From Synechococcales cyanobacterium C42_A2020_086 (GTDB taxonomy: Bacteria > Cyanobacteriota > Cyanobacteriia > Elainellales > Elainellaceae), in NCBI GenBank assembly GCA_015272325.1, contig JACYLU010000014.1:62001-126000 (forward strand): 64,000 nt of DNA. The letters are read 5' to 3'. Each line of letters begins with the position of its first letter. Position 1 is the first letter of the stretch. Positions 43,769-50,081 of this stretch are shown here, piece after piece. The position numbers were made by a program, and so were the translations under genes. The notes under the pieces were generated by a model. That model was not told the DNA's origin and did no database searches. It saw only the letters and a program-made list of their open reading frames with translations.

Positions 43769-44947
43769 CTACTCCACTCGCAGCACCAGTCCCTTCAAAT
43801 ACAGCCCTTCGGGGTGGTAAAGGCTAACGGGATGGTCAGCGGGCTGCGTCAGGTGATGCAACACCCGCACTGGCCGTCCCACCTCGATGGCTGCGGCGGT
43901 CACGGCTCCTCGAAAATAGTCGGGCACTACCACCTGCGAGCAGGAAAAGGTGAATAGCACGCCGCCCGGTCGTAGTTTCGTCAGCGCCAGTTTATTCAGC
44001 CGCTTGTAGGCCATGACTGCCTGATGGCGTGCTGATAAGGATTTGGCAAAGGCGGGCGGATCGAGCACAATCACGTCGTAATCGGCGTCGCAGTCCTTGA
44101 GGAAGGTGAATACGTCGTCTGTGAAGGCCTCGTGGCTGCCACTTGCCGGATTCAGCGCTACGTTGTCTTTTGTCCAGGCGATCGCTCTAGCGGAACTATC
44201 CACCGAATGCACAATCGACGCTCCGGCTGCCAAGGCATAGACCGAGAAGCCGCCAGAATAGCAGAAGGTATTCAGCACCTTTTTGCCCGCCGCATAGGCA
44301 CTCAGCAAATGGCGATGCTCGCGCTGATCCAGGAAGAAGCCGGTTTTCTGCCCGGTTTCCCAATCCACATGAAAGCGATGCCCGTATTCGCGCACCTCGC
44401 CTGTGCCAGAACGGCCAAACAGGTATTCTCCTGCCGGGTTTGATTTGAATAGCACCGCAGCGCTCTTGTCATAAACAGTATGCAGTGCCGAGCCGTAGAT
44501 CTGCTGCAATGCCTCCACCAGCACCATGCGCTGCTCATACATGCCGAGGGAGTGGGCTTGCAGTACAGCGGTGCCGTTATACCAGTCAATAATTAGCCCC
44601 GGAAAGCCATCACCTTCCGCATTCACAAGCCGATAGCCGGTGGTTTCTGCTTGGTCCACTAGTCCAAGCTGCCGCCGCAGGTCAAACGCTTGTCGCAGTT
44701 GAGATCGCCACAGCTCCGCCACATCCGCCACCGGATGAAAGGCAAATACTTTCACGGCAATGCTGCCCGTTCCGTAGTGCCCGGTTGCCAGAAACTCGCC
44801 GGCCTCGCTGTAGACTTCAACGATTGCTCCGTCGCGCAACTCGCCCTCGCAGCGCTTGATAGCACCGGAAAACACCCAAGGGTGAAACCGTTTAACGGCG
44901 TCTACTTTGGACTGCCGCAGGATGATGCGCGGAAACGGAGAAGACAT
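43769..44947 (-). CDS. class I SAM-dependent rRNA methyltransferase (RlmI family)
   Basis: A 392-residue protein with an N-terminal PUA RNA-binding domain (about residues 1-75), a mid-part EEHD-type domain, and a C-terminal methyltransferase domain with KVLNTFCYSGGFSVYALAAGA as motif I and DVIVLDPPAFAKS as motif IV. Its E. coli relative RlmI makes m5C1962 in 23S rRNA. The same target is plausible. The Cys before the Gly-rich loop and one in the FSCSQ motif fit an m5C-type enzyme. Last gene of the second minus-strand run. Confidence 0.9.
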   Translation of the reverse strand: MSSPFPRIILRQSKVDAVKRFHPWVFSGAIKRCEGELRDGAIVEVYSEAGEFLATGHYGTGSIAVKVFAFHPVADVAELWRSQLRQAFDLRRQLGLVDQAETTGYRLVNAEGDGFPGLIIDWYNGTAVLQAHSLGMYEQRMVLVEALQQIYGSALHTVYDKSAAVLFKSNPAGEYLFGRSGTGEVREYGHRFHVDWETGQKTGFFLDQREHRHLLSAYAAGKKVLNTFCYSGGFSVYALAAGASIVHSVDSSARAIAWTKDNVALNPASGSHEAFTDDVFTFLKDCDADYDVIVLDPPAFAKSLSARHQAVMAYKRLNKLALTKLRPGGVLFTFSCSQVVVPDYFRGAVTAAAIEVGRPVRVLHHLTQPADHPVSLYHPEGLYLKGLVLRVE

Positions 44948-45864: not shown

Positions 45865-47196
<1,332 letters not shown>

Positions 47197-47265: not shown

Positions 47266-48534
47266 TTAGGAGGTCAGCGGCTGCCATTTCATCTGCGGCG
47301 TTTCCGTTGAGGCAATCAGGTTACCTCGAGAAATTACATAGCGAACAGTAGCGCGGCGGCGCAGGGCATCGTAGCGATTGCAGGCATCCAGCACAATCAA
47401 ATTGGCTGGTTTACCGACCTCAATGCCATAGGTTTCGCCTAAGTGTAGAGTCTTCGCGCCATTCCAGGTGATCATGTCGTAGCAAGCGTTCATTTCGCTC
47501 ATGCCGGTCATCTGAGCTACATGAATCAGCATAAAAGCGACATCCAGCATATTGCCCGTGCCCAAAGAATACCAGGGGTCCTGCACGCAGTCATGCCCGA
47601 GGCTGACGTTCATCCCCTGCTGCCACAGTTCTTTGACGCGGGTTAGCCCCCGCCGCTTGGGGTAGGTATCGGTGCGCCCTTGCAGCGTGATGTTGATCAG
47701 GGGATTAGCAATGAAATTAATCTGGGTGCGGCGCAGGAAGCCTAGCAGCTTCAGGGCATAGGCGTTGTTGTAGGAACCGAAGGCTGTCGTGTGGCTAGCC
47801 GAGACCCGGGGACCCATGCCGGTGCGAATGGCGCAGGCGGCCACGACTTCTAGAAAACGAGACTGGTCATCGTCGATTTCATCACAGTGGATGTCGATCA
47901 AGCGGTCGTACTGCTGTGCTAGCTCAAAAATGCGCTGCACCGACCTCACGCCGTCCTCGCGGGTCAGTTCGTAGTGGGGAATGCCGCCCACACCGTCGGC
48001 TCCTAGCTTTAGGGCTTCCTCTAGCAGCTCCTCGTTCTGGGGACCGCCGTAAATGCCATCTTGGGGAAAGGCAATCACTTGTAGCGTGATCCAGTCTTTG
48101 ACCGCCTCGCGCACCTCTAGCAGCCCTTGCAGCGCCATTAGGTTTGCCTCGCTGACATCGGCATGGCTACGCACATAGAGCACACCCTGCATCGCCTGCT
48201 GCTTTAGGGTTTCCAGGGCCCGCCGCTTCACGTCGTCTAGCGACAGATCTTGCTTGCGCTCCCGCCAGATCTCGATGCCTTCAAACAGGGTACCGCTCTC
48301 GTTCCAGCGCGGTTCGCCGGCGGTGAGAGCCGAGTCGAGGTGAATATGGGATTCCACGAACGGCGGACTAATGAGCTGTCCCTCAACCTCCAATTCCAGC
48401 GGGGCAGAGGCGTCGAGATGGGGCGCAATGGCAGCAATTGTGCCGGCGGTGATGCCAATGTCTACCGTGTTAAGGTCTCCGTTTGGTCGCAGCAGCCGTC
48501 CTTGGCGCAGTAAGAGGTCGTAGGAAGAGGGCAT
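47266..48534 (-). CDS. CodA-like deaminase, probably 5-methylcytosine type
   Basis: A 422-residue amidohydrolase strongly similar to E. coli cytosine deaminase CodA throughout. Metal ligands and catalytic residues are seen: His63 and His65 (SHIHLD), His216 and Glu219 (IHCDEIDDDQSRF), His248 (SASHTTA) and Asp315 (LGHDCVQDPWY). The residue after the metal Asp, which is Asp314 in CodA and contacts the ring, is Cys316 here. Enzymes lacking Asp314 have been shown to deaminate 5-methylcytosine to thymine. Cytosine or another pyrimidine remains possible. It lies 34 nt downstream of the TPR gene and 126 nt before ahcY. Confidence 0.85.
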   Translation of the reverse strand: MPSSYDLLLRQGRLLRPNGDLNTVDIGITAGTIAAIAPHLDASAPLELEVEGQLISPPFVESHIHLDSALTAGEPRWNESGTLFEGIEIWRERKQDLSLDDVKRRALETLKQQAMQGVLYVRSHADVSEANLMALQGLLEVREAVKDWITLQVIAFPQDGIYGGPQNEELLEEALKLGADGVGGIPHYELTREDGVRSVQRIFELAQQYDRLIDIHCDEIDDDQSRFLEVVAACAIRTGMGPRVSASHTTAFGSYNNAYALKLLGFLRRTQINFIANPLINITLQGRTDTYPKRRGLTRVKELWQQGMNVSLGHDCVQDPWYSLGTGNMLDVAFMLIHVAQMTGMSEMNACYDMITWNGAKTLHLGETYGIEVGKPANLIVLDACNRYDALRRRATVRYVISRGNLIASTETPQMKWQPLTS

Positions 48535-48568: not shown

Positions 48569-49033
48569 CTAGCTCGGTTTAACTGCTGTTCCGGTGGTCT
48601 CGCCGGTCCGAGTCGCCCGCAGCATTTCCAAATCTTGCTTCACCTGAGCATAGCCTAGGGTATCGTTTTGCTGCAGGTACAGTTCGCCTGCCTGCAAGAA
48701 ATCTGCCGTGGCCTCGTTGAGTCGCCGTAGATTTGCGACCGCACGGCCCCGATTGTGATAAGCGACGGCGAGTTCCCTATCGAGCTGGGCAGCGCGGCTG
48801 AAGCAGCTCACGGCTTTTCGATAGTGCCCCGACCGCAATGCTTCCGATCCTTGCTCGACCTGAATAGCTGCCTCTGGATTTAGGGTTGGTACTGGCTGAC
48901 CCTCCATTGCGACCGGCTCAGGAAATACTACCGCAACGCTGCCCTGCCCAAAGTACGCCCGCAGCATCGACCCTAGCCCAACGCCAGCCACCAACGCTAC
49001 AAACAGAAACCAGATCCAAAAACTCGCGTTCAT
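48569..49033 (-). CDS. membrane-anchored TPR protein
   Basis: About 154 residues. One N-terminal transmembrane segment (about residues 5-25) is followed by about two to three tetratricopeptide repeats (residues about 60-135; ALRSGHYRKAVSCFSRAAQLDRELAVAYHNRGRA). TPR repeats bind other proteins. The ATG at 49033 is chosen over the frame opening at 49150 because AAGGAG lies at the right distance and the membrane segment then starts near residue 3. It is in the middle of a dense minus-strand run and is likely co-transcribed with the LapA-like gene 52 nt upstream. Confidence 0.8.
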   Translation of the reverse strand: MNASFWIWFLFVALVAGVGLGSMLRAYFGQGSVAVVFPEPVAMEGQPVPTLNPEAAIQVEQGSEALRSGHYRKAVSCFSRAAQLDRELAVAYHNRGRAVANLRRLNEATADFLQAGELYLQQNDTLGYAQVKQDLEMLRATRTGETTGTAVKPS

Positions 49034-49046
49034 GCCGTCACTCCTT

Positions 49047-49080
49047 TTTCTGTTGTCCAGATGTTTCTGTTGTTCAGATG
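49047..49080. repeat. 17-nt tandem duplication
   Basis: TTTCTGTTGTCCAGATG at 49047-49063 is followed by the same unit with one change at 49064-49080. It sits between the TPR start and the LapA-like stop. Confidence 0.9.
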
Positions 49081-49085
49081 CGGCC

Positions 49086-50081
49086 CTACCGCGGTGAAGG
49101 ATTGCCGGGCGGCAGTTCATCGTCTTCATCGAGACCCCAGTCTTCGTCATCGTCGGGCGACTCTAGATCTTCTAGATTTTCTAGATTTTCTAGATCTTCA
49201 ATGTCAATTTCTGGAGCAGGCGGTGGATCGGCAGAAAAAGGTGGAATGATTACTCGATACTCAGCGTCATAGACGTTGCCCTGCACCGGATCGCGACGAG
49301 GAGCAGCAGTATCACGGACAGGCTCACGCGAGGGTTGAACAGAGTCAGACGCTTTCTCATAGAGCGATTCCGAGGTCGGTTCCTGAAACGGATTTGGCGG
49401 TTGAACGTCAGTTTGCGGTTCTGGCTTGCGGTAGCTGTAGGAGTAGATTGAGCCGGTTTGCGAGCGGGAGGTCGGCTCCTGCTTGACCTCAAAGTCAGTG
49501 CGGCGGGGGATGACAGGTTCCGCAGGCTGCGGTCGTGGAGCATCAGCGGCAGTCTCCTGAACATCCTCGTAGCCTTCCCAGTTGGCCCAGTCGTCGTCAG
49601 CGGTATCGCGGATGGTGGCAGCAGTCTTGGCCGTTGCTTCAGCCGAGGGTGCAGCCGGACGCCGACTCGCAGGTTGAGCAACCTCCCAGTCATCCCATTC
49701 GTCACTGCGATGGGTGTCCCAGTCATCCTCACTGCGCCGCGACGTCGAAGCCACATCAGCCGCCGAGCGCCGTGGCGGATCATTCCCGACTTGAGAGGGA
49801 GATCGCTGCGCCCAGCCAGCACTCCAGTCGCTGCGCTCAGACCCAACAGCAAAATCAGCCCGGGCTGTCTCGCGGCGAGCCGCCGGACGACTTCCTCCTG
49901 CCAAGGCTGCAATCAGCACTGTGGTTAGGGCACCGGCTGCCATTGCCCCCAAAATCCAGACCGAGAGCGGCAGCGCCAACGTGGGAGCACCCAAAACGAC
50001 GAGGGTAATGGGCGATAGATTTTGCACTGCGAACAGTACAAGTCCTGCAGCAAGCAGCAGGAGCAGCACACCTTTAACCAT
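49086..50081 (-). CDS. LapA-domain membrane protein with long acidic tail
   Basis: A 331-residue protein. Two hydrophobic segments (about residues 3-20 and 38-60) make a LapA-like (DUF1049) module, recognised by LVLFAVQNLSPITLVVLG. The remaining 270 residues are hydrophilic, rich in Arg, Ser, Pro and Asp, and look disordered. The end carries a short in-frame repeat (EDLENLENLEDLE) coded by tandem TCTAGAT-type units and a very acidic stretch. LapA relatives are involved in envelope lipid assembly in enterobacteria. The role in cyanobacteria is not known. Confidence 0.75.
   Translation of the reverse strand: MVKGVLLLLLAAGLVLFAVQNLSPITLVVLGAPTLALPLSVWILGAMAAGALTTVLIAALAGGSRPAARRETARADFAVGSERSDWSAGWAQRSPSQVGNDPPRRSAADVASTSRRSEDDWDTHRSDEWDDWEVAQPASRRPAAPSAEATAKTAATIRDTADDDWANWEGYEDVQETAADAPRPQPAEPVIPRRTDFEVKQEPTSRSQTGSIYSYSYRKPEPQTDVQPPNPFQEPTSESLYEKASDSVQPSREPVRDTAAPRRDPVQGNVYDAEYRVIIPPFSADPPPAPEIDIEDLENLENLEDLESPDDDEDWGLDEDDELPPGNPSPR

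Follow-up and report, generated by a model that had tools for sequence, protein, structure and literature searches.

The gene under study lies on the minus strand of the window, by which we mean the whole analysed stretch of 64,000 nucleotides, and encodes a CodA-family base deaminase. The features of the locus are as follows:

45865 to 47178, minus strand: AhcY, S-adenosylhomocysteine hydrolase, downstream of codA
47266 to 48534, minus strand: CodA-family base deaminase of the Cys type, 422 amino acids, ATG start
47572 to 47595, minus strand: motif HDCVQDPW, residues 314–321 (metal Asp315, Cys316, Trp321)
47587 to 47589, minus strand: TGC codon of Cys316, equivalent to the Asp314 position of CodA
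48569 to 49150, minus strand: TPR-motif ORF, upstream of codA with a gap of 34 bases

The TPR-motif ORF and codA may be on a common transcript. Given its overlap of 65 bases with the ORF upstream of it (49086–50081, minus strand), the TPR-motif ORF may start later than at its first ATG. A promoter scan returned one site versus 1.0 expected, and no terminator; no RNA family was found between positions 44000 and 54000 of the window. For the wider gene neighbourhood, the flanks of 80 loci were searched with eight neighbours from the window, and all flanking ORFs were clustered. A conserved codA operon was rejected on this basis, as the flanks showed no common theme and no consistent nucleobase-gene neighbour. 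The TPR-motif neighbour was near codA in a single locus. Because AhcY was found near codA in just three of the 80 loci, this neighbour carries no functional signal and is not evidence for a role in methylation. Two other genes recurred just upstream of codA. A CpeT/CpcT-family gene was present in 13 of the 80 cyanobacterial loci (L071:5364–5972 and 12 others), with a median gap of 6 bases between its end and the codA match, and a ureidoglycolate-lyase-like gene was present in six (L086:5234–5788 and five others), mostly from Microcoleus and its relatives.

The protein scored above the curated thresholds of two cytosine deaminase models in NCBIfam, with 560 bits for NF006685 (threshold 483) and 508.7 bits for NF005748 (threshold 438). 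It was 52–59% identical to E. coli and Levilactobacillus proteins that carry the annotation cytosine deaminase. During the PDB search, the best solved relative by sequence was E. coli CodA 1k6w with 474.7 bits, while Klebsiella 4r7w reached 417.8 bits. A predicted model based on a 25-row alignment (mean pLDDT 82.4) likewise had 1k6w as its best structural match, with a Z of 48.4 and an rmsd of 2.9 over 403 residues, and the Klebsiella 5-methylcytosine deaminase 4r7w_E gave a Z of 46.8 with an rmsd of 2.6 over 395 residues. The model was used for the fold alone, because the pLDDT fell below 50 in the loops 75–77, 81–86, 281–296, and 317–326, the last being the predicted pocket loop. A viral origin of the gene was rejected, since the viral_contigs collection held no relative and all nine matching records of the phage collection were less than 60% identical to the window protein.

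The active site was compared by means of a residue table of 37 positions, picked from the CodA active site and including the neighbours of these residues. The claim of the earlier note that the metal and catalytic residues of CodA are kept was confirmed for all listed residues (His63, His65, Gln158, His216, Glu219, His248, Asp315, and Trp321), which match E. coli CodA. The Cys it had described in place of CodA Asp314 was also found, as Cys316 directly after the metal-ligand Asp315, in an ORF whose minus strand the earlier note had not given. In the phmmer alignment, Cys316 stands opposite the second Asp of the wild-type motif HDDVFDPW (CodA 1k6w), and three mutant PDB entries, titled D314A, D314S, and D314G, show Ala, Ser, or Gly at this place. 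The E. coli-type Asp following the metal Asp is absent from the window protein, and the loss of the residue equivalent to CodA Asp314, as known from Kpn00632, is present. Alignment with the Klebsiella enzyme, which had been proposed as a check, gave the motif QDSIQDPW for 4r7w, i.e., a Ser opposite Cys316, so that the Asp is lost there too. Nine of the 37 tabulated positions differed from E. coli CodA, with Cys316 and Gln318 as the main departures, and ten differed from L152, the Ser-type gene on the Klebsiella chromosome; the metal and catalytic positions were identical in both comparisons. At the tabulated positions 250, 277, 281, and 314, the window protein has the E. coli residue and not the Klebsiella one.

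With regards to the spread of the gene, a search across the phylum found a strong family match in 21 of 386 genomes. Within the window genome's own family, an orthologue was found in 33 of 36 genomes, in some of them as a fragment, and the three genomes lacking one are 68–78% complete. In total, 167 loci were collected, from which 11 were set aside as other genes or paralogues; the remaining 156 gave 132 distinct sequences, comprising 107 cyanobacterial ones, among them that of the window, and 25 taken from plasmid records. The Cys was present in 106 of the 107 cyanobacterial sequences. Two of these, L141 and L142, group with the proteobacterial Cys-type clade, and leaving them out gives 104 of 105. 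The codon at this position was TGC in 68, TGT in 38, and GAT in one of the 107 sequences; the use of both Cys codons implies that the Cys was retained while synonymous changes passed. The neighbouring positions 317, 318, and 320 vary within this alignment. Cys316 is no chance quirk of the window genome but is conserved across the cyanobacterial lineage. The 25 plasmid-borne outgroup sequences carried Ser (11), Asp (8), or Cys (6).

The only cyanobacterial orthologue with Asp, L027 from genome G006 (wider context L173), has the motif HDDIRDPW and accounts for the GAT codon, while its sister L024 carries the Cys (HDCICDPW). The two form a natural pair that makes the question of specificity testable. 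Four CodA-like paralogues from cyanobacteria (L168, L169, L170, and L172), at approximately 30% identity, carry Asn-Asn at the position of the metal Asp and the one next to it, and Phe where the Trp would stand; their usual metal centre looks altered or lost.

Two quick trees, both flagged for long branches, were calculated. The tree of 89 rows united the cyanobacterial clade, the proteobacterial Cys clade, and a haloarchaeal Ser pair (99% SH-aLRT), separate from the E. coli-, Klebsiella-, and Lactobacillus-type sequences. In a tree of 52 rows rooted on five distant paralogues, however, the cyanobacteria joined an Asp/Ser clade (95%) and the proteobacterial Cys clade fell outside, so that the two trees conflict over the placement of the latter. 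Both placed the window protein within the cyanobacterial clade, apart from a Klebsiella Ser-type clade of nine rows. Reading the states off the rooted tree, the fewest changes are needed from Cys, which suggests that Cys is old and the E. coli Asp derived. We go no further than a suggestion here, because the outgroup is remote, the branches are long, and the metal Asp itself is missing in four of the five outgroup rows. The wider proposal that Cys is the ancestral CodA state of broad specificity (cytosine and 5-substituted cytosines), with the E. coli Asp arising later and narrowing it, and with L027 regaining Asp independently, is tentative and, in our judgement, rather doubtful.

The genomic context bears on the origin of a possible 5-methylcytosine (5mC) substrate. 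The earlier note had assumed that cyanobacterial DNA contains methylated cytosine and had considered a role in 5mC salvage plausible. As far as Pfam shows, the first assumption fails for the window genome, which is 99.99% complete and had no match to PF00145 (C5-cytosine DNA methyltransferases); home-made DNA 5mC is therefore not expected there. Of the control genomes, 10 of 14 matched this family. PF00145 was absent in seven of 21 codA-positive versus one of 20 codA-negative genomes, the latter being the first 20 listed from the 386-genome search and not a random draw. Within the window genome's own family, 27 of the 36 genomes were searched, with nine less complete or fragmentary ones omitted, and PF00145 was absent in nine of the 27, the window genome included. 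Of these nine codA-bearing members, eight have the Cys and one (G006) the Asp, which indicates that retention of the Cys does not depend on cytosine methylation of the DNA. Thymidine kinase was found in none of 41 genomes, including the window genome, and in 8 of 14 control genomes. For pyrimidine-nucleoside phosphorylase, none of 21 genomes exceeded the cut-off, with weaker matches below it in 13 and no match whatever in the window genome. Lacking both enzymes, thymine would be without a standard salvage route, while uracil is usable, as uracil phosphoribosyltransferase (UPRTase) was present in all 41 genomes, again including the window genome. Two matches over the cut-off in the window genome to PF01189, an rRNA m5C methyltransferase family, imply that some RNA-derived 5mC is possible. 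The window genome has one PF02133 permease, located on another contig.

For the chemistry, the earlier note had stated that CodA homologues without Asp314 were reported to deaminate 5mC. For the window enzyme this is supported by analogy, since the Klebsiella 5mC deaminase has Ser for the CodA Asp (Asp315 in that paper's numbering) and an Asp-to-Ala change at the same position gave CodA activity on 5mC (PMC6186785, citing Hitchcock 2014). By analogy with Ser and Ala, we consider it fairly likely that the window enzyme can deaminate 5mC. Our literature search found no measured activity of a cyanobacterial CodA. Hitchcock 2014 reportedly also tested Rsp0341 and NCgl0075.

We favour, with moderate confidence, a CodA-type base deaminase that salvages cytosine by way of uracil to UMP and has a relaxed pocket around C5. 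Such an enzyme would be a metal-dependent CodA-family amidohydrolase deaminating free pyrimidine bases. Judging from the CodA mechanism and the conserved residues, a metal-bound hydroxide would attack C4, with His63, His65, His216, and Asp315 as ligands, Glu219 and His248 as proton relay, and Gln158 holding O2. The small, uncharged Cys316, replacing the Asp near C5, would then let the pocket take 5-substituted cytosines including 5mC, in addition to cytosine. Its main cellular use would most likely be the conversion of cytosine to uracil, which UPRTase would turn into UMP, with release of ammonia. Turnover of 5mC would then be either a tolerated side reaction or directed at bases that are imported or freed from RNA.

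A dedicated 5mC deaminase whose role is to recover 5mC from methylated DNA of the cell itself would fit the loss of the Asp as in the Klebsiella enzyme, as well as Gln318, which Klebsiella 4r7w shares and which is Phe in E. coli. The distribution of PF00145 nevertheless speaks against it at all three levels described above, i.e., in the window genome, between codA-positive and codA-negative genomes, and among the own-family members that keep the Cys, and so do the missing thymidine kinase and pyrimidine-nucleoside phosphorylase. A role in such recycling of the cell's methylated DNA is unlikely, and this explanation as a whole is the most improbable of those considered. If the enzyme were instead a plain cytosine deaminase, with Cys as a harmless alternative to Asp and no turnover of 5mC, the E. 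coli residues at positions 250, 277, 281, and 314 and the Asp of the close relative L027 would be readily understood. However, the strictness of the Cys amid variable neighbours would not, and Ala and Ser at this position are described as opening the pocket (PMC6186785); we regard this explanation as unlikely, though not negligible.

It is also conceivable that another base, such as isocytosine, isoguanine, or a related ring, is the substrate. According to a 2025 study, the enzymes of the CodA cluster differ in substrate scope, and one annotated cytosine deaminase converted a single compound among those tested, which makes annotation alone a weak guide to function (PMC12828455). Against this stand the identity to annotated cytosine deaminases and the retention of every listed CodA catalytic residue, and we give this possibility only a slim chance. 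The cytosine-salvaging deaminase with a relaxed pocket is our preferred explanation: the window protein is probably, by analogy with the characterized enzymes, an ordinary member of the cyanobacterial cytosine deaminase family, whose Cys lets 5mC in as well. The Asp said to bar 5mC from CodA is missing in nearly all cyanobacterial members sampled, and 'cytosine deaminase' labels in cyanobacteria may conceal broader enzymes. Strains with such a gene may already respond to 5-fluorocytosine, which would spoil counter-selection with codA.

Among the closest known systems, AtzC (2qt3, 4cqb), solved as N-isopropylammelide isopropylaminohydrolase, has the same fold as the window model (Z 47.1, 388 aligned residues, rmsd 2.4) at 28% identity. 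Alpha- and betaproteobacterial homologues of the Cys type (Rhizobium, Sinorhizobium, Cupriavidus, Azospirillum, and Pseudorhodobacter) carry Cys at the same position and are 45–49% identical to the window protein, but have Leu in place of Phe84 and Thr249; in annotated records, their genes adjoin ABC transporter permeases. E. coli CodA (1k6w, 3o7u) is the best solved match in both sequence and fold, with identical metal and catalytic residues, and differs in having Asp314 where the window protein has Cys and Phe316 where it has Gln. In an E. coli plasmid record, codB adjoins codA, whereas the window has no codB neighbour.

The Klebsiella gene sits in a codB-PucR-codA arrangement. This cassette, with a Ser-type deaminase, was also observed near insertion sequences on Enterobacter and Acinetobacter plasmids (L114, L159), and in the chromosome-sized Klebsiella record of L152 it lies beside a second gene of the Asp type (L153). 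The Klebsiella Ser-type enzymes have Cys, Ser, and Gln where the window protein and E. coli CodA have Asn277, Asn281, and His314, respectively. Klebsiella pneumoniae Kpn00632 (4r7w, 4r85, 4r88) has lost the Asp at the same place as the window protein and shares the Gln two residues further on, with Ser in Klebsiella versus Cys in the window.
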